Shown here in pieces: positions 1-28,130 of a stretch of 64,000 nucleotides of DNA. Numbering within the stretch: the first letter of the stretch is position 1; each line of letters begins with the position of its first letter. The DNA lies in the NCBI GenBank assembly GCA_037176725.1, contig JAZBRS010000059.1, positions 13,565,001-13,629,000 on the forward strand, in the 5' to 3' direction. The position numbers were made by a program, and so were the translations under genes. The notes below the pieces were generated by a model. The model was not told the origin of the DNA and made no database searches. It saw only the letters and a program-made list of their open reading frames with translations. Source of the DNA: Posidonia oceanica (Eukaryota > Streptophyta > Magnoliopsida > Alismatales > Posidoniaceae).

Positions 1-39
1 CACAACGACCGAGGATGGGTTTCGGACCTATCGACCGCA

Positions 40-3734: not shown

Positions 3735-4480
3735 GTTTCGGAGTTATCAACCGGAAGGTTGAGTTTTGGACACTTCGACCGAGGATAGGATTCGGACCTA
3801 TCGACCGTAAATGGAATTGTAAATGATAGATTTTGGACTTATCGATCGGAAGGATGAGTTTCAGAATCATCGACCGTGGATAGGTTTCGGACCGATCAGT
3901 TGCAAAAGAAAATGCAAATGATAAGCTTCGGACTTATCGACCGGAAGGACGAGTTTCAGACTCATCGATCGAGGATAGGTTTCGGACCTATCGACCGCAA
4001 AAGAAAACGCATATGATTAGTTACGAACATATCGATCGGAAGGATGAGTTTCAGACAAATCGACCGAGGATTGGTTTCGGACCAACGTGCACAAATGAAA
4101 ATGCCAATGACAAGTATCGGACTTAACGACCGGAAGGATGAGTTTCAGAGGCATCGACTGAGTATTGGTTTCGGACCTATCGACAGCAAAAGAAAATGCA
4201 AATGATGTGTTACGGACTTATCGACCGGAAGGATGAGTTTCGGACTCATCGACCGATGATAGGTTTCGGTCCTATTGACTGCAAAAGAAAATGCAAATGA
4301 TAAGTTACTGACTTATCGACCCGAAGGATGAATTTCAGACTCAACGACCGAGGATAGGTTTCGGACCTATCGACCACAAAAGAAAATGCAAATGTAAAGT
4401 TTCGGACGTAGAGACCGGAAGGAAGGTTTTCGGACTCATCGACCGAGGATTGGTTTCGAACCTATTGACTGCAAAAGGTA
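3735..4480 (+). repeat. Variant module A-F, copy 3
   Basis: Complete. A and B share private changes (CACTTCGACC, TAGATTTTGG, spacer AAATGGAATTGTAAATG) with the module at 12400, about 8.65 kb away. C is degenerate (CCAACGTGCAC). F reads GACGTAGAGACCGG then GAAGGTTTTCGG. Confidence 0.78.
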
Positions 4481-7960: not shown

Positions 7961-8230
7961 AGCTTTCGGACCTATCGACCGCAAGGGGAAATGAAAAAGA
8001 TATGTTTCGGACTTATAGACTGGGAGGATGAGTTTCGAAATCATCGACCGAGGATAGGTTTCGGACCTATCGACTGCCAAAGAAAATGCAATTGATAAGT
8101 TACGGTCATATCGACCGGAGGGATGAATTTTGGAGTCATCGACCGAGGATAGGTTTCGGACCTATCGACGACAGAAGAAAATGCAAATGATAAGTTTCGA
8201 ACGTATCGACCGGATAGATGAGTTTCGTAC

Positions 8231-8420
8231 TCATCTACCGAGGATAGGTTTCGGACCTATCGACTGCAAAAGGAACTGCAAATGATAAGTTTCGGACTTT
8301 TCGACCGGATGGATGTGTTTCTGACTCATCGACCAAGGATAGGTTTCGGAGCTATCGACCGCAAAAGGAAATGCAAATGATAAGTTCAGACTTAGCGACC
8401 GGAAGGATGAGTTTCGGACT
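8231..8420 (+). repeat. Local duplication of two monomers, copy a
   Basis: Shares TCATCTACCG, AAAAGGAACTGC, ATGGATGTGTTTCTGAC, GGAGCTATC and GATAAGTTCAGACTTAGCG with 9275-9463. Only one difference was seen over about 190 bp (CGACC versus CAACC), so this is among the most recent exchanges in the window. The offset is 1044 bp, about 11 monomers. Confidence 0.8.
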
Positions 8421-9274
8421 CATCGACCGAGGATAAGTATCGGACCTATCGATTGCAATAGAAAATGCAAATGATAATTTTCGGACTTATCGACCAGAAG
8501 GATGAGTTTCATACTCATCAACCGAGGACAGGCTTCGGACGAATCGAGCACAAAAGAAAATGCAAATGACATGTGTCGAACTTATCGACCGGAAGAATGA
8601 GTTTCGGACTCATCGACCAAGGATAGATTTCGGACCTATCGACTGCAAAAGAAAATGCAAATGATAAGTTTCGTACATATCGACCGAAAGGATGAGTTTC
8701 GGACTCATCGTCCGAGGATAGGTTTCGGACCTATCGACGGCAAAAGAAAATGCAAATGATACGTTTCGAACATTGAGACCGGAAGGATGAGTTTCGGACT
8801 CATTGACCGAGGATAGGTTTCAGACCTATCGACCACAAAAGGAAATGCAAATGATTAATTTTGAACATATCAACCGGTTGAATGAGTTTTGGATCCATCG
8901 ACCGAGGATACGATTCGGACCTATCGACCGCAAAAGAAAATGCAATTAGTAAGTTTCGGACTTAGCGACCGGAGGGATGAGTCTCGAACTCATTGACCGA
9001 GGATAGGTTTCAAACCTATCGACTGCAAAAGAAAATGCAATTGATAAGTTTCGGACATATCGACCGAATGGATGAGTTTAGGTCTCATCGACTGAGGATA
9101 GGTTTCGGACCTATCGACCATAAATGGAAATGCAAATGATAAGTTTCGAACTTGTCGACCGAAAGGAAGTTTTTCAGACTCGTCGACTGAGGGTAGGTTT
9201 TGGACCTATCGACCGCAAAAGGAAATACAAATGATAAGTTTCAGACTTATCGACCGGAAGGATGTGTTTCGGAC

Positions 9275-9463
9275 TCATCTACCGAGGATAGGTTTCGGAC
9301 CTATCGACTGCAAAAGGAACTGCAAATGATAAGTTTCGGACTTTTCGACCGGATGGATGTGTTTCTGACTCATCGACCAAGGATAGGTTTCGGAGCTATC
9401 AACCGCAAAAGGAAATGCAAATGATAAGTTCAGACTTAGCGACCGGAAGGATGAGTTTCGGAC
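9275..9463 (+). repeat. Local duplication of two monomers, copy b
   Basis: Partner of 8231-8420. Sequence immediately upstream is not shared: the copy at 9241 has GATGTGTTTCGG where the other has GATGAGTTTCG. Confidence 0.8.
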
Positions 9464-10639
9464 TCAACGACCGACGATAGGTTTCAAACCTACCGACTGC
9501 AAAAGAAAATGCAAATGATAAGTTACGGACTTATCGACCCGAAGGATGAATTTCGGACACATCGACCGAGGATAGGTTTCGGACCTATCGACCGCTATAG
9601 AAAATGCAAATGATAAGTTCCGGAATTAGAGACCGGAAGGATGAGTTTCGGACTCATCGACCGAGGATAGGTTTCGGACCTATCGACCGCAAGAGGAAAT
9701 GCAAATGATAAGTTTCGGTCTTATCGACCGGAAGGATGAGTTTCGGACTCATCGACCGAGGATAGGTTTCGGACCTAGCGACCGTGAAAGAAAATGCAAA
9801 TAATATGTTTCGGACTTATCGACCGGAAGGATGAGTTTCGGACTCATCGACCGAGGATAGATTTCGGACCTATTGACCGCAAAAGAAATTGCAAATGATA
9901 AGTTTCGGACTTATCAACCAGAAGGACGAGTTTCGGACTCATCGAGCGAGGATAGGTTTCGGACCAATCGACTGCAAAAGGAAATGCATATAATAAGTTT
10001 TGGACTTATCGAATGGAAGGATGAGTTTCAGAATCATCGAACGAGGAAAGGTTTTGGACCTATCAACCGCAAAAGAGAGTGCAAATGATAAGTTTCGGAC
10101 TTATCAACCAGAAGGTTGAGTTTCGGACTCAACGACCGAGGATAGGTTTCGGTCCTAACGACTGCAAAAGAAAATACAAATACTAAGTTTCGGACATATC
10201 GAGCGGAAGGATGAGTTTCAAACTCATTGACCGAGGATTGGTTTCGTACCTATCAACCGCAGAAGAAAAAGTAAATGATAAGTTTCGGACATAGAGACCA
10301 GAACAATGAGTTTCGGACTCATCGACCGAGGTTAGGTTTCGGACCTATCGACCGCAAAATGAGAAGCAAATGATAGGTTTCAGACTCATCGACCGAGGAT
10401 AGGTTACGGACCTAGCGACCGTGAAAGAAATTGCAAATAATAAGTTTCGGACTTATCGACCGGAAGGATGGGTTTCGGACTCATCAAGTGAGGATTAGTT
10501 TCGGACCAATCGACCGCAAAAGGAAATGCAAATAATAAGTTTCGGACTTATCGACCGGAAGGATGAGTTTTGGAATCATCGACTAAGGAGAGGTTCTGGA
10601 CCTATCAACCGCAAATGAAAATGCAAATGATAAGTTTCG

Positions 10640-11960
10640 GACCTATTGACCTAATGGTTGAGTTTCGGACTCATCGACCGAGGATTGATTTCGAACCTAT
10701 TGACCGCAAAAGAAAATGCAAATAATAAGTTTCGGGCATATCGACCCGAAGGATGAGTTTCAGACTCATCGACCGAGGATAGGTTTCGACCCTATTGACC
10801 ACAAAAGAAAATGCAATTGATTAGTTTCGTACATATCAATCGAAAGGAGGAGTTTCAGACTCTTCGACCGAGGACAGGTTTCGGACCAATCGACCGCAAA
10901 AGATATTGCAAATGATAAGTTTCGGACTTATCGACCGGAAGCATGAGTTTCGGACACAACGACCGAGGATGGGTTTCGGACCTATCGAGCGCAAAAGAAA
11001 ATCCAAATGATAAGTTTCGGACTTATCAACTGGATGGATGAGTTTCGGACACATCGACCGAGGATAGGATTCGGACTTATCGACCGTAAAAGGAAAAGAA
11101 AATGATAAATTTTGGACTTATCGATCAGAAGGATGAGTTTCAGAATCAACGACCGAGGATAGGTTTCGGACCAATCCACTGGAAATGAGAATGCAAATGA
11201 TAAGTTTCTGACTTATCGACCAGAAGGATGAGTTTCAGACTAATCGACCGAGGATAGGTTTCGGACCTATCGACCGCAAAAGAAAATGCAAATGATAAGT
11301 TTCGGACATATCGACTAGAAGGATGAGTTTCGGACGCATCGATCGAGGATTGGTTTCAGACCTTCGACCGCAAATGAAATTGCAAATGATAAGTTTCAGG
11401 CATATCGACCGGAAGGATGAGTTTCGGAGGCATCGACCGAGGATTTGTTTTGGACCAATCGACAGCAAAAGAAATTGCAAATGATATGTTACTGACTTAT
11501 CGACCGGAAGGATGAGTTTTGGACTCATCGACCGAGGATTGGTTTCGAACCTATCGACTGCAAAAGAAAATGCTAATGATAAGTTACATACTTATCGACC
11601 CGAAGGTTGAATTTCAGACTCATCGACCGAGGATAGGTTTCGGACTGATCGACCGCAAATGAAAATGCAAAAGATAAGTTTCGGACTTGGAGACCGAAAG
11701 GATGGTTTCGGACACATCGACCGAGGATTTGTTTCGGACCTATCGACCACCAAAGGAATTGCAAATGATAACTTTCGGACATATCGACCGGAAGGGTGAG
11801 TTTCGGACTCATCGACTGTGGAAAGGTTTCGGACCTATCGACCGCAAAAGAAAATGCAAATAATAAGTTTTGGACCTATCGACCGCAAAAGGAAATGCAG
11901 ATGATAAGTTTTGGACTTATCGACCGGAAGGATGAGTTTCGGAATCATCGACCGAGGAAT
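10640..11960 (+). repeat. Satellite segmental duplication, left-arm copy b
   Basis: Partner of 6640-7960. The offset stays at 3997-3999 bp along the whole match, so few indels have accumulated. It continues past 11960 with similarity to 1000-1370 (offset about 10.98 kb). Confidence 0.78.
11035..11770 (+). repeat. Variant module A-F, copy 5
   Basis: Complete and nearly parallel to copy 4, including the CCTTCGACC deletion in C and TTGGAGACCGAAAGG in F. The offset is 3997-3999 bp. Confidence 0.78.
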
Positions 11961-12399
11961 GCTTTCGGACCTATCAACCGTAAAAGAAAATGCAAATGAT
12001 AAGTTTCAGACTTATCGACCAGAAGGTTGAGTTACGGACTCATTGACCGAGGATAGGTTTCGGACCTATCGACCACAAATGAAAATGCAAATGATGAGTT
12101 TCAGACTTATCGACCTGGAAGGATGAGTTTCAGACTCATCGACCGAGGACTTGTTTCGAGCCTATCGACCGCAAAAGAAAATGCAAATGATAAGTTTCAT
12201 ACTTATCGACCGAAAGGATGCGTTTCGGACTCATCGACCGAGGTTTGGTTTCGGACCAATCGACCGCAAAGGAAAATGCAATTGATAAGTTTCGGACTTA
12301 TCAGCCAAAAGGATGAGTTTTGGACTCATCGACCGAGGATAGGTTTCGGACCTATCGACCGCAAAAGAAATTCCAAATGATAAGTTTCGGAGTTATCAA

Positions 12400-13100
12400 C
12401 CGGAAGGTTGAGTTTTGGACACTTCGACCGAGGATAGGATTCGGACCTATCGACCGTAAATGGAATTGTAAATGATAGATTTTGGACTTATCGACCGGAA
12501 GGATGAGTTTCGTAATCATCGACCGAGGATACGTTTCGGACCGATCAACCGCAAAAGAAAATGCAAATGATAAGCTTCGGACTTATCGACCGGAAGGATG
12601 AGTTTCAGACTCATCGACCGAGGATAGGTTGTGGACCTATCGACCGCAAAAGAAAATGCAAATGATTAGTTTCGGACATATCGACTGGAAGGATGCGTTT
12701 TGGACGCATCGACCGAGGATTGGTTTCGGACCAACGACCGCAAATGAAAATGCCAATGATAAGTTTCGGACTTATCGACCGGAAGGATGAATTTCGAAGG
12801 CATCAACCGAGGATTGGTTTCGGACCTATCGACAGCAAATGAATATGCAAATTATATCATTCGGACTTATCGACCGGAAGCGTGAGTTTCGGACCTATCG
12901 ACTGCAAAAGAAAATGCAAATGATTAGTTACGGACTTATCAACCCGATGGAAGAATTTCGGACTCATAGATCGAGGTTAGATTTCGGACCTATCGTTCGC
13001 AAAAGAAAATGTAAATGCTAAGTTTCGGACTTGGAGATCGGAAGGATTGTTTTCGGACTCATCGACCGAGGATAGGTTTCGGACCTTTCAACTACAAAAG
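12400..13100 (+). repeat. Variant module A-F, copy 6
   Basis: Complete A-F with a degraded D/E (one hairpin lost near 12880). Its A and B match copy 3 rather than its neighbour copy 5, which shows that sequence blocks were shuffled rather than expanded strictly locally. Confidence 0.74.
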
Positions 13101-14546
13101 GAATTGCAAATGATAAGTTTCGGACTTAACGACCGGAAGGATGAGTTTCATGCTCATCAACCGAGGATTGGTTTCAGACCTTTCGACCGCCAAAGAAAAT
13201 GCAAATAATAAGTTTCGAACTTATCGACCGGAAGGATGAGTTTCGGACTCATCGACCGAGGATAGGATTCGGACCTATCGACCGCAATAAAAAATGCCAA
13301 TGTTAAGTTTCGGACATATCGACCGGAAGGATGATTTTCGGACGCATCAACCGAGGATAGGTTTCAGACCAATCGACCGCGAAAGAAAATGCAAATGATT
13401 TGTTTCGGCCTTATCGACCGAAAGGATGTGTTTCGAACTAATCAACTGAGGATAGGCTTCAGACCTTCTGACCGCAAAAGAGACTGCAAATGATAAGTTT
13501 CGAACTTATCGACCGAAAGGATGAGTTTCGGACACATAGACAGAGGATAGGTTTCAGACCCATCGACCGCAAAAGAAAATGCAAATGATAAGTTTCAGAC
13601 TTATCAACCGGAAGGATGAGTTTCAGACTCTTCGACCATGGATAGGTTTCGGACGTATCGACCACAAAAGGAAATGCAGTGAGAAGTTTCAGACTTACCG
13701 ACCGGAAGGATGAGTTTCGAACTCATCGACCGAGGATAGGTTTCGGACCTATCAACCGCAAAAGAAAATGCAAATGATCTGTTTCGGACTTATCGACAGG
13801 AAGGATGAGTTTCGGACTCATCAACCAAGGATAGGTTTCGGACCTATCGACCGCAATAGAAAATGCAATTGATAAGTTTCGTACTTATCGACTGGAAGGA
13901 AGAGTTTCGAACTCATCAACCATGGATAGGTTTCGGACCTATCGACCGCAAAAGAAAATGCAAATGATATGTTTCAGACTTATCGACCGTGTGGATTAGT
14001 TTTGGACTCATCGACCGTGGATCGGTTTCGGACCTATCGACCGCAAAAGAAAATGCAAATGATAAGTTTCGGACTTATCAACCGGAAGGATGAGTTTTGG
14101 ACTCATCGACCGAGGATAGGTTTCGGACCTATCGACCACGAAAGAAAATGCAAATATTATGTTTTGGACTTATCGACCGAAGGATGAGTTTCAGACTCAT
14201 CGACCGAGGATTGGTTTCGGACCTATCGACCGCAAAAGAAATTGCAAATGATAAGTTTCGGACTTATCGACCAGAAGGATGAGTTTCGGACTCATCGAGT
14301 GAGGATAGGTTTCAGACCAGTCGACCGCAAAAGGAAATGCAAATGATAAGTTTCGGACTTATCGACCGGATGGATGAGTTTCAGAATCCTCGACCGAGGA
14401 AAGGTTTCGGACCTATCAACCGCAAAAGAAGATGCAAATGATAAGTTTCGGACATATCGACCAAAAGGTTGTGTTTCGGTCTCATCGACCGTGGATTTGT
14501 TTCGAACCTTTCGACCACGATGAAAATGCAAATGATAAGTTTCGGA

Positions 14547-14551
14547 CTTAT
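14547..14551. repeat. Target site duplication, left copy (CTTAT)
   Basis: CTTAT lies directly outside the left LTR and is matched exactly at 27103-27107. In the uninterrupted satellite it is the 3' arm of hairpin H1, so removing the element and one copy restores a normal monomer. Confidence 0.95.
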
Positions 14552-15520
14552 TGTAGTAATCCTGAATTCTGATCGTCCATGCACATTACCAAAGCTTGTG
14601 TGCACCGATCAAAATAGGGTCACTATATGCGACTAGATCCGAGGGAAGAACTCGACTCGGAAACGCTGGCAAAAGAAAAGAAAAGAAATGATAAGACAAT
14701 TCGGATTCGCCACTGGGTCTATTGATTTGGAAGACAAGGAAAACCAGGGGGTAAAGCATGAAAAGACATGCTGAACTGGATGCAAGGAGGAGCAAAGGGA
14801 TGCAAGGATACGCTAAGCTATGCTATGCTATTATGCTTTGCTATGACTCTGGCCTAGGATAAAGGAAAGGTCGATGCGAGCCAAGAGAAAGGGCAAGGAC
14901 TCCTGTTACGCACGGGGAAGGTGTTAGGCACCCCGATACGTCCGAGAGTCGGTCTTTCTTAGGCAATCTCGCGCTTATGCAAGGAATTGCTAGCCTAAAT
15001 GCCTTAAATGCTTACCTATTATGTAAGGGAAGTAAACGTGCTATCTAAGTGCTCAGCCACGCTGCTAGTGTTCCGAACTGGGCGGACCCTGGTTCGTGAG
15101 AACTCCTAAGCAGTATGCATCATGGCCCTATATGCGAATGCAAGCGATAAAACAAAACGGCGGGAAAACCAAGCAATGTGAGCGATAAAGCAAAACAGGT
15201 GCGAAAAATGGTGCGGAAAATGCGGGAAATACTGCAACGTGTGGAAAACGATGCAAAAAGCGGAAAGCTATGCAAAGGGACGCGGAAAACCATGCAGCGG
15301 AGCGAGAAACGATGTAAAACGCGAAAAACAGGGCGAGGCATGGAAAACGAGGCAAAGCGGGGTGCGAAATCAAAACAAAGGGGTGGGTAACATGCATTGG
15401 GGTTGCAGCAAGCCAATGAAGCAATAAAATGCGAAAAACAGCAAATGACGCGAAATCAGCGTTTTAAAATGGCTGTCAGCCATCTACAAGCATTGGACGC
15501 TGGCAACACCAGCATCCAAC

Positions 15521-15524
15521 GTTG
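15521..15524. other. Deletion junction in the left LTR
   Basis: Left LTR sequence reads CCAACGTTGAGGGATGC. In the right LTR the two halves are CCAACGTCGG (24791-24800) and TTGTTTGAGGGATGC (ending near 26461). At most one base of microhomology (T) is shared, and no duplication flanks the 1651-bp segment. The left breakpoint lies at the centre of a GCGTCCAACG palindrome module. Confidence 0.8.
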
Positions 15525-15869
15525 AGGGATGCAAGGGTTCTGCTGCGAATTGCAGTGGCTTGGGCAGGAATTGCAGGCAAATGGCAGGTGCTCTGGGTGT
15601 GGGAAGGCCACGAGGAATGGCAGGAGGGGTGTGGGCGTGTCAGTCGGCAGCGAGGAGGCCGATGGCGGCTGACAGAGGCGGCAGGGGTCAGTGAGGGCAA
15701 GGAGAGCTGGATTTCAGCTGAAATAGAGGAGAGATAGGTAGTAACTCAAGCTTGGAAGGTAGTGGATGGCGTGGAGTGGAGGAAGGGACGGGTAGTAAGT
15801 GAGGGGAGGCGGTGGATTGGACGAGAGGTGAGAGGAAGGAGGCGGAGCAGCCGCTGCTGCAACCGAGCC

Positions 15870-15955
15870 GTTGGACACTAGACCAGAGGGCGTCCAACGT
15901 TGGACACTGGAACAGGACACGTCCAACGTTGGACGCTGCCTATTCCAGCGTTCAA
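15870..15955. repeat. LTR palindrome module 6 (left LTR copy)
   Basis: Same module as 26797-26885. The left copy keeps GTCCAACGTTGGACGC at its second centre, where the right copy has GTCCAATGTTGGACAC, and it has decayed instead at the first arm (GTTGGACACTAG). Confidence 0.73.
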
Positions 15956-16176
15956 CGAGCTCAGTTGGCAAAAGGCTACAACAAGGCTTGGGCTTGGGCC
16001 AAAGAGGTGGAAAAAGGTGTAAAATGGTTTGAGGTTTTGGCTTGGGATTTAGGTGAGGTTTTGAGCTAGGTTTTGGGTTAGAAAAGAGGTAGAAAAAAGA
16101 AGTGCCAATCCAGAGTCCACACGAGCCTGCAGGAGAAAACAACCAACTTCTGGGCTGTCAGAATGGGGTGTCTACA

Positions 16177-16190
16177 GATGCCCCTCCCTG
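16177..16190 (-). other. Polypurine tract next to the 3' LTR
   Basis: In element orientation CAGGGAGGGGCATC lies directly before the 3' LTR start TGTAGACACC. The purine core GGGAGGGG is the expected plus-strand DNA primer. Its position on the gag-distal side agrees with the primer binding site on the other side. Confidence 0.85.
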
Positions 16191-17772
16191 AGTGAGGTCA
16201 AGCGTAGCGAGACCAATGCTCAGGAGACAAGACACCCTACCTGACGCCGGCAAGAGCACAAATTGCTATGGACGTGAGTCACTTATCCGGCGGATGCACC
16301 GGAAATCATGACTCGATGCCACAATGCAGATGCAGATGCAGGATGCTAATGCAATGCAATGCATGCTAATGCAGAAGTTAGTGCAAAGCTTATGTTAGAT
16401 GTTAGTGCAGAACTAGTATGCAATGCGAATGCTGATGCTGGACTAGCATAAACTAGTGCACGTGCGAGTGCTGTGTATGAGGAGATGCTATGCAGATGCA
16501 TGGGGAATGCTGGCACTAAGGCCGATGCTGATGCATGGGGTGCTATGCTTGCAGATGCCAATGCTTGAAAGCTAATGCTTGAATGCTAGTGCTTGAATGC
16601 TTGCAGGAGTGCTAATCCTTTAAGTGAATGCTTGCAAATGCTAATGCTTGAAAGTGCTAATGCTGTGCGTGCTTGCTAATGCTGGGGCCGTGTAGAGTGA
16701 TGCATGGAGAAGAAGTAGGGGGTTCTACAGGGCAATGCGGCAAGTTGGCTGCTTGTCCAAGCTTGCGCAGAAAAGCTGGTCCGGGGGGGCTAACACACAT
16801 GCCACTTGGGCAGGCTGCTAGTCCAGGGGAGACCACGGGCTCTTGTCCGTTCAGGACAAGTGGAACAAGCAGGAGCTCGCGAGGCCGCGAGAATGAGAGA
16901 GTGCTTGCCTCCAGGCGAGGCAACAGACAGGCAAAAGAGGTAGAAGGGGTAACGCAATGCAAAGGGGATCCTAAGCAATGCGGGAAAGTGAATGCAAATG
17001 CAGATGAATGCAGACGCTAGAATGCTGTGCAAATGATATGCCTATGCTAACGCTTACTGTGCTGAAACTCCTCTGGGGGAAAGCGGGATGGTGCATGCAC
17101 GCGGAAAAGTGGAAATGAAATGCAATGCTGTCGCTGGCCAATGCATGTAGGCCAAGCAACGGGGGTGCCATTCGCAAAGCTCAGCTGTAGACGAATGGCG
17201 ATGCAAGTGCATGGGATACTGCAGAAAGTAAATATGCTAAAAGTAAAGCAGGGGAATGTGCATGCAGCAGCGGATACTAAAAGACCCGAGAAAGCGGAAT
17301 GCGGGAGTTGATGGAAGGACCACAGAGGAGCGGCAGCGCAAATAAGGGCACAATGCATGAGATGCTATGCAGTGGATGCAAGGTATGCAGCGGAACGCTG
17401 GGCATGCAGAATCGAGAAAGCGATCCTGGGTTATGCATTACTGCGAGCAACATCCCGAGCCGGCAATGCTATAAAAAGAAGCATGCGAGCGACGAAGATG
17501 CTGCCTTAGGCAATACGTGAACCTGGGGTTCGGATCCTAAGCGCGCGATGTCCGTGTAATGATGAGATGCAGTACTAGGACTGACTCTACAAGGCATACA
17601 AAGGAGCTATATGATGCTATGCAATGCGAATGCTGTGAGATGCAGTGTACTAATAATGATGGAACGCCGGGCACGTGAGACCGGGAAAACGATCCTGATC
17701 GCGCGACATCCAGGCGATGATGAAATACTAATGCCATGCAACAAAATGCTATTACACTAAGATGAAATGGGT
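16191..17772. other. Non-coding element interior with ATGC-rich degenerate repeats
   Basis: From about 16320 to 16690 the sequence is a degenerate run of ATGC words (GCAGATGC, CTAATGC, TGAATGCT). Related ATGCAATGC words are scattered to 17750. Open frames on both strands are short, low in complexity and match nothing known. This is where pol would lie in an autonomous relative. Confidence 0.6.
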
Positions 17773-18440
17773 GATAGGTTAACGAACCTATCGCCGAATA
17801 GTTAGCGCTATCAGCCCACGGGGTGTTAATGGACTCACCACCGGATAGTTGGGGCTATCAGCCCGATGGATGGTGACAGACCAACGAGTCTGTCAGGCAA
17901 GAGGGGTGATTACAAGTGTGACAGCTTGTAACCACGAATGCAACGGGAATACCATACCCGAGGGTGTGGCAGAGGTCCGCAGATGCTCCCGTAACAGTTA
18001 GGGATGTCAGCCCAAATGCAGATGGAAATGGGATACCAGGGGGCAGCTAAACAAAGATGCCCCTGGTATCGGCGAACGATACCAGGGGGCAGCCGAAGCG
18101 CCCCTGGCATCAAAATGCAAGGCGGAGACAACACTAACGGGTTTGTCAGCCGAGTAGTTAGGGCTACCAGCCCGAATGCAGTGAAATGGATGTAAGGGCA
18201 CACCGTGCAAAGTGCAATGACGATGGGGGATGCAATGGAATAATGCAAATGCAAGGTGATAAGTTAACGAACTTATCGCCGAATAGTTAGGGATATCAGC
18301 CCAAATGCAACGCAGATATGCAGGATGACATTTTAACGGGCGTCAGCCGAGCAGTTAGGGCTGCCAGCCCGATGCAGAGGAATGCAAAGTGATAGGTTAA
18401 CGGACCCATCGCCGAGCAGTTAGGGTTGCCAACCCGAATG
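17773..18440 (+). repeat. 3'-UTR tandem repeat cluster 1 (degenerate units)
   Basis: A more degraded cluster of the same alpha-beta unit, interspersed with ATGCAAATGC filler. Clear alpha hairpins: GATAGGTTAACGAACCTATC at 17773, GATAAGTTAACGAACTTATC near 18259 and GATAGGTTAACGGACCCATC near 18392. Beta stems include ATAG/CTAT near 17855, GTAG/CTAC near 18155 and GCAG/CTGC near 18352, all around a TTAGGG or TTGGGG loop. The copy near 18259 is preceded by AATGCAAATGCAAGGT, close to the satellite spacer AATGCAAAT. Confidence 0.82.
18032..18111. repeat. Two adjacent long inverted repeats
   Basis: GATACCAGGGGGC pairs with GCCCCTGGTATC (18032-18070). A second GATACCAGGGGGC (from 18078) pairs with GCCCCTGGCATC (to 18111). 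Stems of about 11-12 bp enclose loops of about 10-15 nt. They lie inside cluster 1 and may be an amplified relative of its hairpins. Confidence 0.75.
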
Positions 18441-19876
18441 CAGAAATGCTACAGAACGGAAACAGAAATCCATCGTGATAGGCATGCAATGGTCTCAGCG
18501 CGGGCATGCCTCGCGGCGTCACAAGGTGACAAACGAGGTACATGCCGGTCGTCACGGACCTACCCACGCGGTGGGCGGCAAAATTTGAAAATCGCGGAGC
18601 CTCTGAGCGAGGCAGGCAAAAATGCTCGTCCTTGGCTCCGGTTTTAGAAAATAGGGAGAAAGGAAGATAAAGATATATTACAGCATGCATGTTTTGGTGG
18701 CTTTGGACTCAAAGCAGCTACGCCATGAGGATGCTTATGCGATTGCTGTCTCAGGAGACCCGATCCTCGAGCGACGCCATGCCGAGTTGTGGTCGGTGGC
18801 TCTCTTTCTCACTCTTGGCTTAGGATGAGGCCTTGGCTTTGTAGAGTATAGCCTTCGGCTGCAGGGTAGCAGAAGCGTTGGATGCAGCTTCTTAGCCTCC
18901 GTTTCAATGCTTCGGGGACCAACTACCGCTTTTGACACTCACAGAATAGATCTTTCTTTTCCCCTCATGAGTGACCGAAGTTGCATCTAGCCTGCCAAGG
19001 AAGTAGTGATGTCTGCAGAGGAGATTGGAGCGTGCTGCTGCGCTCGAAGGGTGGGGCTAGGCCCTCCTGATAATGCATCTCGTGCAGTTGCCAGTGTGGC
19101 ACTTGAAGCTGAAGGCTGAGGTGGCTTCGACGCTCGTCTGAGTCACTCCTCTCATGAGCGCCTTCTTTCTTCGCTTTCTTTCTGCATTTTTCTTTTGTGC
19201 TCAGCATGCATATCATGTTGTCGTTTCTTCTACTCACATGACCTCTATTCTTTTGGATATGCATGTCTTCGCCCTCTTGGGGTAGCAGTCCCGGATGAGG
19301 CGTTGAAAGTTCGACTGATCAGCGTACACCCCCAGCCTCTGCAATGTGTATACAGCCTCTGGCTATGCTCTACTCTGCCTTGGTCCTATACATGATCGGT
19401 GGACTCTCTAGTTAAGGTGGACATCGCTTTGGGAGTTTTTAAGCTCGACGAGTCGCTCTGTTCTACTCTAGTCTCACTCTGTAGCCACATACAAGAGATG
19501 ACGCTGCTCGGGTGAGACCTACCTAAGACTGTCACTGCTTGACATCCTCCAGGCGCTGCTTGTTTGTCCAAAGCCGAGTTTCTAATTATGCAAATGTTTG
19601 TGGGTTTTGTATATTTTAGCAAGGGAAAGGACAAACATGTTTTTGGGTTTTGCATTGGTTTTGTATTTTTATGATTTTTGCTTAGGAAAACATAAAAGGG
19701 AAAACCAGCAGAAAGGCGAAGAAAATATTTTTGCTATTTTTGTTTTCTTGATGTTTTTGGCTTTATGCTTTACAGAATGCAAGAAATGATATGTACATGC
19801 AATAAATAACAATGCATGATGGCAGATATGTGCAGGATGAATGGATATGCATGCAAAGTGATTGATATGTGCAGGT
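18441..19876. other. Non-coding stretch between the two hairpin clusters
   Basis: About 1.4 kb of more complex sequence. I found no reverse transcriptase, RNase H, integrase or protease motif in the frames read on either strand. The end nearest cluster 2 (19600-19760) is T-rich and shares a 15-nt word, TTTTTATGATTTTTG (19666-19680), with 20178-20192 on the other side of the cluster. Its origin is unknown; captured host DNA or decayed element sequence are both possible. Confidence 0.5.
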
Positions 19877-20130
19877 GATAAGTTGACAGACTTATCGCCG
19901 AATAGTTAGGGATATCAGCCCAAATGGTAAGTTGACGGACTTACCACCGAGTAGTTAGGGCTACCAGCCCAGTGATGATAGGTTGACGGACCCATCGCTG
20001 GATAGTTAGGGGTATCAGCCCGATGATGATAGGTTAACGGACCTATCGCCGGATAGTTAGGGGTATCAACCCGGATGATGATAGGTTAACGGACCTATTA
20101 CCGGATAGTTAGGGGTATCAGCCCGTATGA
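19877..20130 (+). repeat. 3'-UTR tandem repeat cluster 2 (five ~51-bp units)
   Basis: Five head-to-tail units start near 19877, 19926, 19977, 20028 and 20080. Each has hairpin alpha, for example GATAGGTTAACGGACCTATC (7-bp stem, 6-nt loop), then GCCG, then hairpin beta such as GTAGTTAGGGCTAC followed by CAGCCC. Alpha arms change in pairs between units: GATAAG/CTTATC, GGTAAG/CTTACC, GATAGG/CCTATC. Given on the plus strand, these resemble the satellite subrepeats in the same orientation. They lie in the untranslated region between gag and the polypurine tract. Confidence 0.88.
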
Positions 20131-20517
20131 TAATGAATGCATGCAGGAAAAAATGCAAGTTTTTAGGGTTTTTATACTTTTTATGATTTTTGACATGGCA
20201 AGAAAACACAAAAACAAAACAAAACAAAACAAAAAGAAAGACAGTGCAGGAAACAAAAGGGAGGTAAGAAAGACTTACCTGTCAGCAACCTCAAGAGGGA
20301 GGTGCTGGGTCTGCCCTTACGCTGCTGATGCTGTCGGCAGTGCGGGGAGCACTGGGGCTGCAGATATTGGAGAAGAAGCTTACCTGAACGGTATTGCGAT
20401 TGGGCTTGCTGTTGATTCTGCCGTTGCGCTTCCGAGCGTCCCTCGGACAAACAGGCAGGGATAGGAAGGGGGATTGCGTCGATGGGATCGGAAGGACCCA
20501 CCGGGGCAGAGCTGAAT
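20131..20517 (-). other. Region just downstream of gag, no clear gene
   Basis: A CAAAA-type microsatellite occupies about 20204-20236. An overlapping minus-strand frame (20555-20181) reads through from another phase and is Gln- and Pro-rich, with no domain I recognise. A protease would be expected here in an autonomous element, but no DTG/DSG motif in a plausible context was found. Confidence 0.5.
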
Positions 20518-22710
20518 TCAAAGAAGATTGGGGTAAGCCCCCGAGGTTCCGACATCCCCGAAGCCCGCAGGCTCAGAAGAGGAAGGGCCAGCTACGCTAG
20601 GATGTGCGAGTGTAGGTGCAGGTGTGTGGGCAACCTCCTGCGGACTAACGACGAGGGTCCCGTTGTCAATTAGGTCCTGAACGACATCCCGGAGAGTGAG
20701 GCAATTATCCGTCAAATGCCCCGAGGCTCAATGGTAATCGCAATGCTTGCTCGCGTCGTACCACCTCGGGAGAGGATTTGGTGGAGGGCGAGTTTCCAAA
20801 AGCCTCAGAAGCGACACAACCTGAAGAAAGACGGCGCCTAGCAACTCACCAAGTGGGGTGAAGTCGCTCTTTGCACGGCAGACTCGTCTCTGCCTAGGCT
20901 ATCGTCCTTGCTGAGCTGGTGCGACGTGATGCACCGGCTCAACGGTGACAATGTGTGCAGTGGGTGCATAAATAGGTGCAGGCACTAGCGGAAAAGGATC
21001 TTGCAGACTTTCTGCAAAGGCAGGCACCTCTAGAGGATTAGCGCGGGCGATGGCGTGCTGCTCGAAGCAGTCGGAAGCGGAGTAGTTGCTGCTGTTGCTG
21101 CTGCGGCGATTGCTGGTGCTGTCAGCCTGCCTAGCCAGTGCAGAAAGTGCGGGGAAATGCCCACTCTACAGTGAGCTTTCCACGCGAGCGCCAGCCCTAA
21201 TCAGCGATGCAAAACTAGTGATGTGCTGGATGCAAAGTAGAGTCCCAGTCGCCGGCAGCGCCCCTTTGACGATCATCTTGATAGAATCCTCCTCGGAGGG
21301 TCTATCTCTGACCTAGGCGGTTGTGGAACGCCAGCGACCGACATACTCCCCGAATGGCTCTTGGGGCCTCTACCGGATGGCGACGAGATCCTCCCTCTTG
21401 GGGATCATGTCGAGGTTGAAAGCATATTGCTCAAGAAAGGCCCGAGAAAGACCAGTCCAAGTCTGAAGCGTAGCCGTGTCAAGGGACGTGAACCACCTGA
21501 GCACGGGGCCGGTTAAACTCTTCTGGAACAAGCGGATAAGGAGCCTTTCATCAGCCTGAAGCTGAGAAAGATCCCTGCAATATGCCTTCAGATGCGAGAT
21601 GGGGCAGCCTCTACCATCATATTTATCGAAGTCTGGGATGCGAAACTTCGAAGGGAGTGCAGCCTCGAGAAAGAGACAGAGGTCGCGAAATTGGTAAGGC
21701 TGGCGATCCTGGCCTTGCACTTGACGAAGTGCTCTCTCTAGATCACCCAACTTGGTAAGGAAGGCGTCAGAGGCTGCTGCTAGCGAGGGTTGTGCAGCAG
21801 AGGCAGGGACCACATATGCTGTGCAGGTCGCACGAGAGCGCTCCTCCGGATCCACCGTCACGCCACCTGGTGTCGTAGCGTGAGGGCCAGCATACCCGTG
21901 CAAGGGTGCAAAGTGTGGTGCTATGAATGCAGGGGTCTGAACTTGATGCAAGGGAGATGGATAGATAATATGCTGTGCAGTGTGAGGTGTAGTGCGGGGA
22001 AGCAGCAGCTATTGCACTGGCACGGTGCTGGGCAATGGGCTTAAGGGGTGCTGTGCTCCCGCCAATCCAGAAGACTGGCCACCAGAGGAAGGAGTTGTAT
22101 GCAGTGCAAGGTGCTGTGCAGGTGCAGGAGGCTGAAAAAGCGCCCCCATCGCTGGAGCCGTGAGGAGCCGGGGCGATGGAAAGGGCGGAGGTGCAGTGTA
22201 GCGAGCCTGCAGGGCTACAGAGGGCGGCACTGGAACCTCAAGGGTTGAACGGGAAGAGCAGGCCACAGTCGGGTCGAGTGCGAGAGCCATGCTTCGCAGC
22301 CTATCGACCTTAGCCAATAAACGCTGCGCTTGCAAGGCAGAGAACGCATCGACCAATGGGCCGAGGCGTAGGGAGGTGCCCGCCAGAGGAGGCACGGAAA
22401 CCAAGGAAGCAACTGGAGTGGATCCTATGCAAAGGGTAGCCGCAGAAGACCGAATTCCCGAGACGGGAAGGCCCTGGGATGGAACAGGAGGCAACGCTCC
22501 TAGAGCCAGAGTGGCGATCACCGCGGTAGATGCGGTGACAAGCTCCAGGTCGGTCGGGATCGACCCTTGATCCGAATAAAGGGGCTGGGAGGTCTCCTGT
22601 ACCAGAAGTGGAGGGGAGACGGGGGATGCCAAAGTAGAGGAAGGAGAGACCAAAGTCGGTACCTCTCCTGACGCCAATGAGGAAGGGGGCTCGTCGGTAT
22701 GCTGGGCCAT
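20518..22710 (-). pseudogene. gag: Tat/Ogre-type gag, six in-frame stops
   Basis: One reading frame of 731 codons, starting at ATG 22710 (MAQHTDEPP; an in-frame upstream ATG lies at 22815) and ending at TGA 20518-20520. Residues 1-250 are rich in Pro, Ser and Ala. Residues about 353-446 form the retrotransposon Gag domain, with FRIPDFDKYDG, LLIRLFQKSLTGPVLRWF and FLEQYAFNLDMIPKREDL. Residues 657-670 give a C-X2-H-X4-H-X4-C knuckle (CDYH...GH...C), followed by LRDVVQDLIDNG, typical of Ogre-like Gag. Stops interrupt it at 22009-22011, 21370-21372, 21313-21315, 21166-21168, 20899-20901 (all TAG) and 20728-20730 (TGA). No frameshift is needed anywhere. Gag would form the virus-like particle, but this copy cannot encode it in full. 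Confidence 0.9.
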
Positions 22711-22815
22711 AGCGGACGGCGAGCGAAAGCAAACAGGTCTGTGGCTGAAGGCAGGGACACAAGACCTAAAGAGACCTACTATCAGCGGCGACAGACAGCT
22801 CAGAGAGAGAGACAC

Positions 22816-23810
22816 TCAGAAACCAGGCTGAGGGGATCCGCACCTACCTGTAAAACAAATAAATGCATTAGAGGTTGGATGCAAAAAGAGGTTATTAGGG
22901 GTGGCATGATGCAGATGAATGCCCTAATATGCGCTCTCTTACCATGCATGTCCTGAGTAGATGACCTACCGGGACGCACTCAGGGGTAATGGGATTATGC
23001 AGACTCCAGGTCAGAAAAATAGGCTCCCGTCTCGACCCTGCCAAAGCTCAGGTATAACGGGTGGTGCATTGGTGGCCTCGACCCTGCTAGAAGCATGGGT
23101 GGTATCCTCCAATAACACCGACACGACCCCTAGACAAGGGGGGACAGACCGATCTACTCACACCACGCCAAAGCATTGGGAGCAAGAGACCGGGACTATC
23201 CTTCTCAAACTATGGGCTGACTCAGGTGAGAAGAATGCATGCTTTCTAAATGCTGATGCAAATGCTTTAGAGCATTTTACTTGCGTTTTATTTAACCGAA
23301 GGGGAAAATTGCAAGTTTTGGCTCTAGTTGTGCTTAGATGTTATTACTTTGCTTTATTGTGACCTTTAGATTAAGCAAAGGGAGAAGCAAGCAAGTTTCT
23401 ACTATCCTAGGCATGGCATATGCGAAGGGGAGAGAAAGAAGTCATGGTATGCAGGCAATTCACATAGCAAGGCAAAAAGCATGGGCGTGGCATGTGCAAG
23501 TGTATGTGGTCACGATAGTGAAAGAAAAAACACTTGTCATAGCAAAAGCAGGCATGCATGGCATGTGCAGGTGCAATGGCATTGCATTGGTGTAAAAAGA
23601 AGCATTCATCATTCAAAAAGGCATGCATGGTGTGCCAAGCAAGTATTTAGACATGTGATGCAAGCAAAATGAAGCAGTGCAGGCAATCATGGCATAAAGC
23701 AGGTAAATAAACAAGCAGGCAGGTAAGCAGGTAAAGCAGGCAGAAGCAAAAGACAAGCAAAACACCCAAGCAAGAGGCGAGAAGGCCAAGGCGAAAGCCA
23801 AAGTACTGCT
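22816..23810 (-). other. Element leader between primer binding site and gag
   Basis: About 1 kb without a recognisable coding frame. The part next to the primer site (23400-23800) is rich in GCATGCATGG and GCAAGCAGG-like short repeats. The gag-proximal part (22960-23230) is more complex. In element orientation TTTGTTTTACAGGTAGG at about 22845-22861 resembles a 3' splice site. Introns are known in Ogre elements, but this position is not established and I give it little weight. Confidence 0.6.
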
Positions 23811-23827
23811 CCCCAGCGGAGTCGCCA
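23811..23827 (-). other. Primer binding site, tRNA-Arg type
   Basis: In element orientation TGGCGACTCCGCTGGGG starts one base after the end of the 5' LTR. It begins with TGG, the complement of the tRNA CCA end, and continues as the complement of the GGAGTCG acceptor end of plant tRNA-Arg. Ogre elements are known to use tRNA-Arg. The site also proves that the element runs on the minus strand. Confidence 0.88.
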
Positions 23828-23978
23828 CTGTAGTAATCCTGAATTCTAATCGTCCATGCACATTACCAAAGCTTGTGTGCACCGATCAAAATAGGGTCAC
23901 TATATGCGGCTGGATCCGAGGGAAGAACTCGACTCGGAAACGCTGGCAAAAGAAAAGAAAAGAAATGATAAGACAATT

Positions 23979-23990
23979 CGGAGTCGCCAC
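23979..23990 (-). other. Primer-site-like sequence inside the 5' LTR
   Basis: In element orientation GTGGCGACTCCG repeats the first 12 bases seen after the LTR end (G plus the primer binding site), about 150 bp inside the LTR. The left LTR copy has mutated to GTGGCGAATCCG (near 14701-14712). Confidence 0.7.
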
Positions 23991-24767
23991 CGGGTCTATT
24001 AAATTGGAAGACAAGGAAAACCAGGGGGTAAAGCATGAAAAGACATGCTGAACCGGATGCAAGGAGGGGCAAAGGGATGCAAGGATAAGCGAAGCTATGC
24101 TATGCTATGACTCAAGCCTAGGATAAAGGAAAGGTCGATGCGAGCCAAGAGAAAGGGCAAGGACTCCTGTTACGCACGGGGAAGGTGTTAGGCACCCCGA
24201 TACGTCCGAGAGTCGGTCTTTCTTAGGCAATCTCGCGCTTATGCAAGGAATTGCTAGCCTAAATGCCTTAAATGCTTACCTATTATGCAAGGGAAGTAAA
24301 CGTGCTATCTAAGTGCTCAGCCACGCTGCTAGTGTTCCAAACTGGGCGGACCCTGGTTCGTGAGAACTCCTAAGCAGTAAGCATCATGGCCCTATATGCG
24401 GATGCAAGCGATAAAACAAAACGGCGGGAAAACCAAACAATGCGAGCGACATGCGAGCGATAAAGCAAAACAGGCACAGAAAACGGTGCGGAAAATGCGG
24501 GAAATACTGCAAAGCACGGAAAACGATGCAAAAAGCGGAAAGCTATGCAAAGGGACGCGGAAAACCATGCAGCAGAGCGAGAAACGATGCAAAACGTGAA
24601 AAACAGGGCGAAGCACGGAAAACGAGGCAAAGCGGGGTGCAAAATCAAAACAAAGGGGTGGGTAACATGCATTGGGGTTGCAGCAAGCCAAAGAAGCAAT
24701 AAAATGCGAAAAACAGCAAACAACGCGAAATCGGCGTTTTAAAATGGCTGTCAGCCATCTGCAAGCA

Positions 24768-24824
24768 TTGGACGCTGGCAACACCAGCGTCCAACGTCGG
24801 ACGCTGGCAAGGCTGGCGTCCAAC
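24768..24824. repeat. LTR palindrome module 1
   Basis: TTGGACGCTGG...CCAGCGTCCAACG followed by TCGGACGCTGG...GGCTGGCGTCCAAC: two back-to-back hairpins with 8-10 bp stems. The left LTR keeps only the first half, at 15493-15522, because the deletion starts at its centre. Confidence 0.75.
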
Positions 24825-25006
24825 ACCTGCTGTAGATAGACAGCATGCATTCTTTTGAAAACAATGCAATCTAACTATATGGATGCAATACAGATGCAAA
24901 TGTGCAGCTACAAGGGTGCTAGACATGCAGATCTATCCTAACAGAAAGATAGAAGAGGAATCAGAACAAGGGACATGCCAGAATCATGGATCCAAGCATG
25001 CAGGTT

Positions 25007-25065
25007 GTTGGACGCCTGTAGGCTGGGCGTCCAACGTTAGACGCCAGAGAGGCTGGCGTCCAACA
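25007..25065. repeat. LTR palindrome module 2
   Basis: GTTGGACGCC...GGGCGTCCAACGTTAGACGCC...GGCTGGCGTCCAAC. Same design as module 1, about 239 bp further on, with one change (TTAGAC) in the central palindrome. Confidence 0.72.
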
Positions 25066-25230
25066 CAGAACAGAAGGCAGAGGGGAGAAGGGAGCATGCA
25101 AGTGATAGGTGAGAGTTGGGATTATGCATTTGGGTCACTGGGGTTGAGCATGGAGCAAGCAAGCAAACAAGGGAGGCATAAAAAATTAAACCTTACCTGT
25201 GCAGAGTGCCAGGCCAGAGGCACAACTAGG

Positions 25231-25292
25231 GTGTTGTACGCGAGCTAGGCTGGCGTCCAACGTTGGACGCCAACACCAGCAGCGTACAACAC
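25231..25292. repeat. LTR palindrome module 3
   Basis: Outer arms GTGTTGTACGC and GCGTACAACAC pair perfectly over 11 bp. The centre holds GGCGTCCAACGTTGGACGCC, a 20-nt perfect palindrome. The outer arm carries GTAC where the other modules have GGAC, and the change is compensated on the far side. Confidence 0.78.
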
Positions 25293-25456
25293 TCTAGGAG
25301 GCACAACACACAAAAAGCATGCACAAACAAGCAAATAAATTAATGGAAGCTTAAGAACAGTTACTACTAAAGCTAAACATGCATAAGAACACAAGAAGCA
25401 AGCAAATAAGCATGATCAGAGAGGTATGCAAGCTTAAACAAATGCATGAGAAGCCA

Positions 25457-25522
25457 GGTCGTTGGACGCTAGAGCCAGCAACGTCCAACGTTGGACGCTG
25501 AATGCTCTAGCGTCGAACGACC
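25457..25522. repeat. LTR palindrome module 4
   Basis: Outer arms GGTCGTTGGACGCTAGAG and CTCTAGCGTCGAACGACC pair over 18 bp with one mismatch, around a central ACGTCCAACGTTGGACGC. The whole 66-nt unit is an imperfect palindrome. Confidence 0.78.
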
Positions 25523-25853
25523 CAGACCTGCAGACTCACCTGTTCTAAAGGGGGAGCTCAGCTCAGACCCCACCTACATGCATGCAGCTACTGTAACATG
25601 CCATAACAGAAAAGGAAGCATTGAAAGCAAGCATGGCAAGCACTTAAGTTAAGGAAAAACAAAAAGGAAGGACATGCATAAGAGATGGAAGCTTTAAACT
25701 TTGCAAAAAGGAGTAAACAACTTAGAAAAAATCCTAGCAAACCTAAACATGGTTGCCATAGGGGCCAGGCATCTCTAAGCATGCATGGATCATAAGATAA
25801 TACCATAAATATGCATGATATAGGCATGGCAGCAAAGCAAAGCAAACAGGGGT

Positions 25854-25911
25854 GTTGGACGCTAGGTGAACCAGCGTCCAACGTTGGACGCAGCTCACCC
25901 TAGCGTCCAAC
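25854..25911. repeat. LTR palindrome module 5
   Basis: Arms GTTGGACGCTAGGTGA and TCACCCTAGCGTCCAAC pair with a one-base bulge around the perfect 18-nt centre GCGTCCAACGTTGGACGC. A half-site (GCGTCCAACAC) follows near 26096. Confidence 0.77.
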
Positions 25912-26796
25912 GAAGGCAGAAGATAGACGGATATTAAACATGCAAAAAGCAATCAAACATGCATGGAACATGGTAAAAACATGGTATAGCATCAGAGAGA
26001 ATTAAAAGGAGGCAAATAGCATATACTTGCAGAGAAACATGCAAAGGAAAAGCATGGGAAGCAACTGAACAAGTGCAAAGCAGAGTAGAGCTGGTGCGTC
26101 CAACACACTAAGCTCCATTCCGGCCATGAATCATGGCCAAAAGGATTCAGAAGAATGCAAGGTTGCATGGGGATGCACACACTAGCATGCATGACCTACG
26201 AGGATAGAAATCTTACCTTGTCGTGGCTTGGAACGACGTGTCGGCCTCCCTCACCGGCGCTGCAGAAGTGGATGAGCAGCCAACTCCGGCGAGCTCGTGC
26301 GAGCTGCTGGAGGCACGGGAGAGGTTGGCTGAAGGTCCAGGATGAAGGTGGATACTTGGTTTCTCTCTGGAGGTGGAGAATTGGGGCCGAAGAGGGGTGT
26401 GCTGCTCTGTGTGTGTTGAGGAAGATGGGTGGTTGGTGCTGGTTTTGTTTGAGGGATGCAAGGGTTCTGCTGTGAATTGCAGCAGCTTGGGCGGGAATTG
26501 CAGGCAAATGGCAGGTGCTCTGGGTGTGGGAAGGCCACGAGGAATGGCAGGAGGGGTGTGGGCGTGTCAGTCGGCGGTGAGGAGGCCGATGGCGGCTAAC
26601 AGAGGCGGCAGGGGTCAGTGAGGGCAAGGAGAGCTGGATTTCGGCTGAAATAGAGGAGAGATAGGTAGTAACTCAAGCTTGGAAGGTAGTGGATGGCGTG
26701 GAGTGGAGGAAGGGACGGGTAGTAAGTGAGGGGAGGCGGTGGATTGGACAAGAGGTGAGCGGAAGGAGGCGGAGCAGCCGCTGCAGCAACTGAGCC

Positions 26797-26885
26797 GTTG
26801 GACGCCAGACCAAAGGGCATCCAACGTTGGACGCTGGAACAAGGCGCGTCCAATGTTGGACACTGCCTATTCCAGCGTTCAACGA
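26797..26885. repeat. LTR palindrome module 6 (right LTR)
   Basis: GTTGGACGCC...GGCATCCAACGTTGGACGC...GCGTCCAATGTTGGACACTG...CAGCGTTCAAC. Three consecutive half-palindromes near the element's transcription-proximal LTR end. The left LTR has the matching module at 15870-15955. Confidence 0.75.
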
Positions 26886-27102
26886 GCTCAGTTGGCAAAA
26901 GGCTGCAACAAGGCTTGGGCTTGGGCCAAAGAGGTGGAAAAAGGTGTTAAAAGGCTTGAGGTTTTAGCTTGGGATTTAGTTGAGGTTTTGAGCTAGGTTT
27001 TGGGTTAGAAAAGAGGTAGAAAAAAGGAGTGCCAATCCAGAGTCCACACAAGCCTGCAGGAGAAAACAACCAACTTCTGGGTGTCAGAATGAGGTGTCTA
27101 CA

Positions 27103-27107
27103 CTTAT
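27103..27107. repeat. Target site duplication, right copy (CTTAT)
   Basis: Second copy of the 5-bp duplication, directly after the LTR terminus GTCTACA. A 5-bp duplication is the usual size for Ty3/gypsy integrases. Confidence 0.95.
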
Positions 27108-27384
27108 CGACCGGAAGGATGAGTTTCAGACTCATCGACCGAGGATAGGTTTCGAACCTATCGACCGCAAAAGAAATGCAAATGATAAGTTTCATACTTA
27201 TCAATCGAAAGGATGTGTTTCGGACTCATCGACCGAGAATAGGTTATGGACCTATCGACCGCAAAAGAAAATGCAAATGATAAGTTTCGGACTTATCGAC
27301 CGGAAGGATGAGTTTCTGACTCATCGACCGAGAATAGGTTTCGGACCTATCGACCGCAAAAGAAAATGCAAATGATAAGTTTCG

Positions 27385-28130
27385 GACTTATCAACCGGAA
27401 GGATGAGTTTCGGACACATCGACCGAGGAAATGATTCGGACCTATCGACCGTAAATGGAAATGCAAAAGACAAAATTTGGACTTATCGACCGGAAGGTTG
27501 AGTTTCGGAATCATCGACCGAGGATAGTTTTCGAACTGATCAACCCCAAAAGAAAATGCAAATGATAAGTTTCGGACTTATCGACTGGAAGGATGAGTTT
27601 CAGACCCATCAACCGAGGTTAGGTTTCGGACCTATCGACCGCAAAAGAAATAGCAGATGATAAGTTTCGGACATATCGACCGGAAGGATGAGTTTCAGAC
27701 GCATCGACCGAGGATTGGTTTCGGACCTACGACCGCTAAAGGAAATGCAAATGATAAGTTTCAGACTTATCGACTGGAAGGATGAGTTTCGGACGCATCG
27801 ACCGAGGATTGCTTTCGGACCTATCGACAATAAAAGAAAATGCAAATGATAAGTTATGGATTTATCGACCGGAAGGATGAGTTTCGGACTCATCGACCGA
27901 GGATAGGTTTCGGACCTATCGACCGCAAAAGAAAATGCAAATGATAAGTTACGGACTTATCGACCCGAAGGGTGAATTTCGGACTCATCGACCGAGGATA
28001 GGTTTCAGACCAATCGACCGCAAATGAAAATGCAAATCATAAGTTGCGGACTTGGAGACCGGAAGGATGATTTTCGGACTCATCGACCGAGGATTGGTTT
28101 CGGACCTATCGACCGCAAAAGGAATTGCAA
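27385..28130 (+). repeat. Variant module A-F, copy 7
   Basis: First module right of the insertion. D has GACGCATC instead of GAGGCATC, and CGACAATAAAAG. Its A region is part of an exact 114-nt match (27368-27481) to 52531-52644. Confidence 0.77.

Follow-up and report, generated by a model that had tools for sequence, protein, structure and literature searches.

The 95-bp satellite of Posidonia oceanica described here is probably a new case of a known route, by which tandem repeats in the 3' untranslated region (UTR) of a retroelement become a satellite. The window, meaning the whole stretch of 64,000 nucleotides that was analysed, is one array of this satellite with a single interruption at 14552-27102, where an LTR retrotransposon sits. 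This element carries, in the stretch from gag to its 3' LTR, short hairpins, called alpha, whose resemblance to the satellite hairpins is moderately above chance even when chance is made to preserve hairpins. The hairpins differ from one another by compensated changes, both among the units of the element and among the three hairpins of the satellite monomer, the array itself carries no sign of compensation, and the element was inserted after the array had formed. Our preferred reading, to which we give close to an even chance, is that the alpha and satellite hairpins derive from one module, which would have diversified in a retroelement UTR and been amplified into the satellite, with a later member of the family inserting into the array.

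The array and its interruption are laid out as follows.

1 to 14551, + strand: left part of the satellite array, 153 monomers segmented
14547 to 14551, no strand: left copy of the target-site duplication CTTAT, inside hairpin 1 of the satellite (right arm)
14552 to 27102, - strand: LTR retrotransposon within the satellite, identified by LTR alignment, ends TGTAG..CTACA, a 5-bp target duplication and a recognisable gag
27103 to 27107, no strand: right copy of the target-site duplication CTTAT
27103 to 64000, + strand: right part of the satellite array, 388 monomers segmented, in the same orientation as the left part

When the two flanks are joined into the empty site, satellite hairpin 1 is restored and the array continues in phase; the array therefore predates the insertion. 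Since the element copy at 14552-27102 entered a pre-existing array, it cannot be the source of the satellite. The LTRs differ by a p-distance of 0.044 over 1612 ungapped sites, as against a pairwise divergence of about 16% between satellite monomers. The insertion point, at 14547-14551, falls within an arm of a satellite hairpin. LTR elements reportedly often target palindromes, to go by the title of a cited paper.

Within the element, the following parts were recognised.

23829 to 27102, - strand: 5' LTR, 3274 bp, from the LTR alignment
23810 to 23827, - strand: putative primer binding site TGGCGACTCCGCTGGGGA, from its position beside the 5' LTR
21370 to 21951, - strand: open reading frame of a gag fragment, Retrotrans_gag, E 5.9e-4 and 20.4 bits, under the Pfam cutoff of 24.1
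16181 to 16189, - strand: putative polypurine tract AGGGAGGGG, adjoining the 3' LTR
14552 to 16176, - strand: 3' LTR, 1625 bp, from the LTR alignment, without the segment matching 24798-26448 of the 5' LTR

The sequence-only reading had taken this for an Ogre-type element with UTR repeats. It is an LTR retrotransposon with gag and fits the non-autonomous class: the LTRs are paired (93.5 and 95.1% identical across their two shared parts), the target duplication is 5 bp long, and a candidate primer binding site and polypurine tract are in place. Tandem repeats between the coding region and the 3' LTR, a feature of the Ogre/Tat type, are present as a 51-bp array containing five of the alpha hairpins. 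The name Ogre-type itself is not established: of the 24 stop-to-stop pieces of at least 90 aa on both strands, 15 are on the minus strand, and a scan of 12 of these gave no pol domain. Within that scope gag is the only coding domain recognised in the element, and the same scan returned two matches to unrelated families (E 0.06-0.07), below the cutoff. The putative primer binding site at 23810-23827, possibly of the tRNA-Arg type, and the putative polypurine tract would be points of resemblance to Ogre elements. Tat lineages are defined by RT/RH/INT phylogeny and the aRH domain in the cited portion of PMC6317226. The gag reading frame has 35 relatives among predicted proteins, 13 of them labelled PF03732 and 34 on contigs of at most 1404 bases; searches for gag in genome contigs and viral contigs gave pattern matches, none of them confirmed. 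An Rfam scan of 14000-28000 at gathering scores gave no matches, and no tRNA genes were found in the 64-kb window. The segment at 24798-26448, 1.65 kb in the 5' LTR and missing from the 3' LTR (join near 15522), contains palindromic modules of the form GTTGGACGC..GCGTCCAAC, some 58-74 bp long, at 25226-25297, 25457-25522 and 25854-25913, and a similar module occurs at 15898-15957.

The satellite was segmented into 541 monomers, of which 408 are exactly 95 bp, with a mean edit distance to the consensus of 9.3 over all 541. Figures for compensation, perfect hairpins, the profile-HMM and monomer identity refer to the 408, the other 133 being left out. The consensus consists of three hairpins and a 17-bp spacer, CAAAAGAAAATGCAAAT. 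The hairpin arms are GATAAGT, GATGAGT and GATAGGT, each with the loop TTCGG inside a T-A closing pair (TTTCGGA) and the tail GACCG. Folded as single-stranded DNA or as RNA, the consensus forms all three. A 19-mer of the satellite has 543 matches at up to 2 mismatches, with none expected. One near-consensus monomer serves as an example.

27279 to 27373, + strand: hairpins with the consensus arms GATAAG, GATGAG and GATAGG, loop TTTCGGA, tail GACCG, spacer CAAAAGAAAATGCAAAT

Neighbouring monomers of 95 bp are no more alike than average (0.826 vs 0.831 in the left part, 0.842 vs 0.844 in the right), and similarity peaks at long lags of 42, 74 and 116 monomers on the left and 229 and 231 on the right. 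This suggests that segments were duplicated while monomers were not homogenised locally. An extra 41-bp unit of hairpin plus spacer recurs in the left array at 845-945, 7827-7927 and 11826-11926 and is perhaps a trace of larger duplicated blocks. Hairpins 1 and 3 mirror each other in their most frequent arm variants (columns 5/15 and 58/70), with A>T on the left side of the stem and T>A at the partner position, but the two mostly occur in different monomers; over the whole monomer A>T and T>A run at 0.045 and 0.038 per site, above the 0.022 and 0.019 of A>G and T>C. A satellite 20-mer had no matches in viral contigs, and the satellite was not found in plasmids.

The element holds eight clean alpha hairpins, all between gag and the 3' LTR and each followed by a second hairpin, called beta.

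17773 to 17796, + strand: alpha hairpin unit with the loop TAACGA
17820 to 18352, + strand: four possible decayed relatives of alpha, loop cores at 17827, 17882, 18135 and 18334, picked by eye from loop and tail
18258 to 18281, + strand: alpha hairpin unit with GATAAG arms, AATGCAAATGCAAGGT directly before it
18391 to 18414, + strand: alpha hairpin unit with one A-C mismatch in the stem
about 19876 to 20131, + strand: five tandem units of about 51 bp, each made of alpha hairpin, GCCG or a variant, beta hairpin, and AGCCC or a variant

Left arms of the clean units read GATAGGT, GATAAGT or GGTAAGT, the loops TAACGG, TAACGA, TGACGG or TGACAG, and the tails GCCG (five units), ACCG (two units) or GCTG (one unit). 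Among the decayed relatives, only that at 17882 has a perfect 8-bp stem (score 4); the other three score 0, 1 and 2, which is chance level. RNA of the + strand, antisense to gag, folds better in the hairpin array at 19870-20131 (z -4.3) than the sense strand (z -2.4).

How closely do these hairpins match those of the satellite? The motif was present where the sequence-only reading had placed it: the exact 20-mer GATAGGTTAACGGACCTATC lies at 20028-20047, and its five matches at up to 2 mismatches all fall within the element. At this best copy both 7-bp arms, the CGG of the loop, the CCG that follows and the orientation are common to element and satellite, as claimed, whereas the copy at 17773 reads AACGAACC and is without CGG. 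GATAAG/CTTATC forms do occur in both the alpha and the satellite hairpins. A satellite-like word had also been noted before one element copy, and AATGCAAATGCAAGGT does precede the hairpin at 18258; it carries little weight, however, because such words are very common in the UTR, where AATGCA occurs 26 times against 1.1 expected. On the same count AATGCAAAT before 18258 was set aside as independent evidence.

The best pair of alpha and satellite 24-mers agrees in 22 bases and differs by a single substitution and two gaps. Ordinary statistics would mislead where both sequences are hairpins, and we therefore used nulls that keep pairing and composition. Under column permutation that keeps the hairpins, the best score of the eight alpha 24-mers, 17, was reached by 1 of 3000 permutations, and that of the five-unit array, 27, by 4 of 5000, one of which scored 33. 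Random hairpins drawn from real k-mers of the element reached the best alpha score in 0 of 20000 cases under each of four scoring schemes, and the median alpha score in 3 to 7 of 20000. Comparison of the whole element with the satellite gave a best score of 27, on the + strand and at the alpha array, which none of 1000 dinucleotide shuffles reached (maximum 25); the reversed element, with its hairpins kept, scored 17. These four null tests overlap in data, and their p values, about 3e-4 to 8e-4 for the permutations, carry no correction for the pair having been picked by the earlier reader. The comparison with shuffled hairpins that had been proposed thus came out above the hairpin-preserving nulls (1/3000, 4/5000 and 0/20000).

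The homology claimed for the satellite and the UTR repeats as a whole is narrowed by these results to the alpha hairpin, for which it is statistically supported over 24 bp only. Searching the element with a profile of the 408 monomers, nhmmer found no alpha hairpin; its best matches, of 2.2 to 3.0 bits, were not significant and lay on the reversed control. Beta hairpins alone score 9, alpha hairpins alone 30, and the permuted array 10.6 on average, so that beta, being at background, was rejected as a relative of the satellite hairpins. Two unrelated hairpin repeats could also have come to share GATA..TATC arms, CGG and CCG by chance. Such convergence would suit the shortness of the matching stretch, the failure of the profile-HMM and the few permutations, among many, that do reach the score; we nevertheless consider it unlikely, as chance stands at about 1e-3 or below in the four overlapping tests, two arm variants are common to both repeats and the orientation is identical. 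Common descent of the alpha and satellite hairpins is likely, though not proven, on the strength of this resemblance.

The satellite might instead have come from the LTR of the family and not from its UTR hairpins. The stretch in question is the following.

23953 to 23993, + strand: LTR stretch with a weak, not significant match to spacer and hairpin 1 (score 18); other LTR copy at 14676-14716

Matches to AAAAGAAAA, AAATGATAAG, TTCGGA and ACCGG do occur in order there, but 112 of 1000 shuffles score at least as high as its 18, A and G predominate in this sequence, and the arms of the hairpin do not align with it. An LTR source is very improbable in our estimate, and the stretch was rejected as source of the satellite on the shuffle count.

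If the alpha and satellite hairpins are indeed related, in which direction did the sequence travel? Compensating changes distinguish the hairpin units of the element from one another. In the alignment of the eight clean units, changes on both sides were seen in 4 of 11 pairs (reached by 4 of 500 shuffles), 92% of cells were paired (0 of 500), and the covariation score was 0.295 against a shuffled mean of 0.164 (0 of 500) and slid controls of at most 0.143, all in a small sample of eight related rows from one element, and related sequences can exceed shuffles. Every one of the 500 shuffles gave a higher value for further standard pair types than the real units did, and two pairs contain cells that do not pair (2/8 and 5/8). 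The four decayed units were left out of this alignment; their inclusion would lower the pairing percentage.

Compensated differences are also found among the three satellite consensus hairpins, which agree in loop and tail and differ at four columns, these making up exactly two complementary pairs. Within the array the picture was different. The 408 monomers hold 26 compensated double changes against 36.8 expected under independence; slid controls give ratios from 0.66 to 1.12, a span that includes the observed one. Hairpins 1, 2 and 3 are perfect in 120, 139 and 129 of the 408 monomers, where the null means are 132, 137 and 131, and 988, 417 and 700 of 1000 shuffles, respectively, reach these counts. 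For hairpin 3 alone there are 8 perfect forms with non-consensus arms where 6.0 are expected, and 248 of 1000 shuffles have at least as many. Hairpin maintenance in the array was thus rejected, neither compensated changes nor perfect hairpins being above the null. Since the array shows no compensation, the paired differences are probably older than the array, that is, the diversity of the satellite hairpins probably predates amplification. This in turn favours, without proving, a structured, UTR-like ancestor, and, with paired differences being seen between units of the element UTR, it gives the best, if indirect, support to the direction from UTR to satellite. The sequence-only reading, which did not raise this point, had proposed that direction, with the satellite arising by tripling of the alpha hairpin and loss of the beta hairpin; as to these steps, the satellite may have arisen in this way.

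The reverse is that an ancestor of the element, lying in the array, captured satellite hairpins, the UTR array being a remodelled piece of satellite. The element does now sit in the satellite, and capture is among the two scenarios given in the cited passages of PMC7004042. However, the element hairpins stand in 51-bp units of alpha and beta and not in 95-bp monomers, the 17-bp spacer is not joined to them, and the satellite consensus has compensated differences of which the array shows no sign of producing any. We regard capture as unlikely. Arm diversity does not separate the two directions, with three clean forms each in element and satellite. An argument from greater arm diversity of the element hairpins was dropped for this reason; it had depended on the four decayed units, and three of their stems are at chance level.

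A hypervariable 3' UTR of plant LTR retrotransposons was reportedly described by Macas et al. (2009) and proposed as a route to satellites. As other papers cite that work, the source region and the proposed route are alike to those considered here. In Lathyrus sativus, nine satellite (FabTR) families are Ogre-derived, and both directions, from UTR to satellite and capture of a satellite, are named as possible in the excerpted text of Vondrak et al. (PMC7004042). From the same excerpts the likeness is that tandem repeats lie downstream of gag-pol in LTR elements and recur as long satellite arrays, that FabTR-54 and 57 are often in non-autonomous elements without pol, and that elements also insert into expanded arrays. 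There, however, element and satellite carry the same repeat, and three of the repeats were traced in other species as well, whereas here only a 24-bp hairpin is common, the periods are 51 and 95 bp and the layouts are unlike. The soybean Gmr9/GmOgre minisatellites, in the sections cited from PMC3305785, are likewise interleaved families of short repeats between coding region and LTR, but mostly stay in elements (90% associated with Gmr9, 9% with other annotated retrotransposons, 1% with uncharacterized repeats). Units of Vaccinium VaccSat6 also occur inside Ogre-like elements according to the part of PMC7290377 cited here, although that monomer is 49 bp long and AT-rich, and similar repeats are described in cited parts of PMC11963269. 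The strings 'palindrom' and 'hairpin' are absent from the main texts of PMC7004042 and PMC7290377; PMC11963269 lacks 'hairpin' and has 'palindrom' only within the title of a cited work. Satellite and UTR words of 17-18 letters and LTR and PBS words had no match in the main texts of the papers searched, and '95 bp' together with Ogre terms had none in the searched literature.

Under the preferred reading, a single hairpin module would be ancestral to the satellite and alpha hairpins. It may have diversified in one arm after another, the arms staying complementary, within the non-coding stretch that precedes the 3' LTR in this family, until a short run of hairpins with an A-rich spacer was presumably amplified into the 95-bp satellite. 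The array would then have drifted with nothing to maintain its hairpins, and insertion by a later family member would have followed. Counting against this are the length of the match, 24 bp only with one substitution and two gaps, the failure of the profile-HMM, the beta hairpin at background, and arm forms in the clean alpha units that number three, no more than in the satellite. The window also offers one copy of the element, in which no intermediate array was found.

A bolder extension, which we hold as doubtful, is that the satellite preserves a structured UTR of a retroelement as a frozen copy, its paired arm differences being a fossil of hairpin-keeping selection or templated copying in the nucleic acid of the element; compensation between subunits without compensation in the array could then be a general mark of satellites from structured retroelement tails. 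The origins of satellites are usually lost to later change. If the preferred reading is true, the hairpin grammar of a satellite that ordinary profile searches cannot align could still reveal its origin in a retroelement tail, and setting compensated subunits against an uncompensated array would be a simple test applicable to other satellites. The case points towards an origin of such satellites in the tails of retroelements, without proving it.
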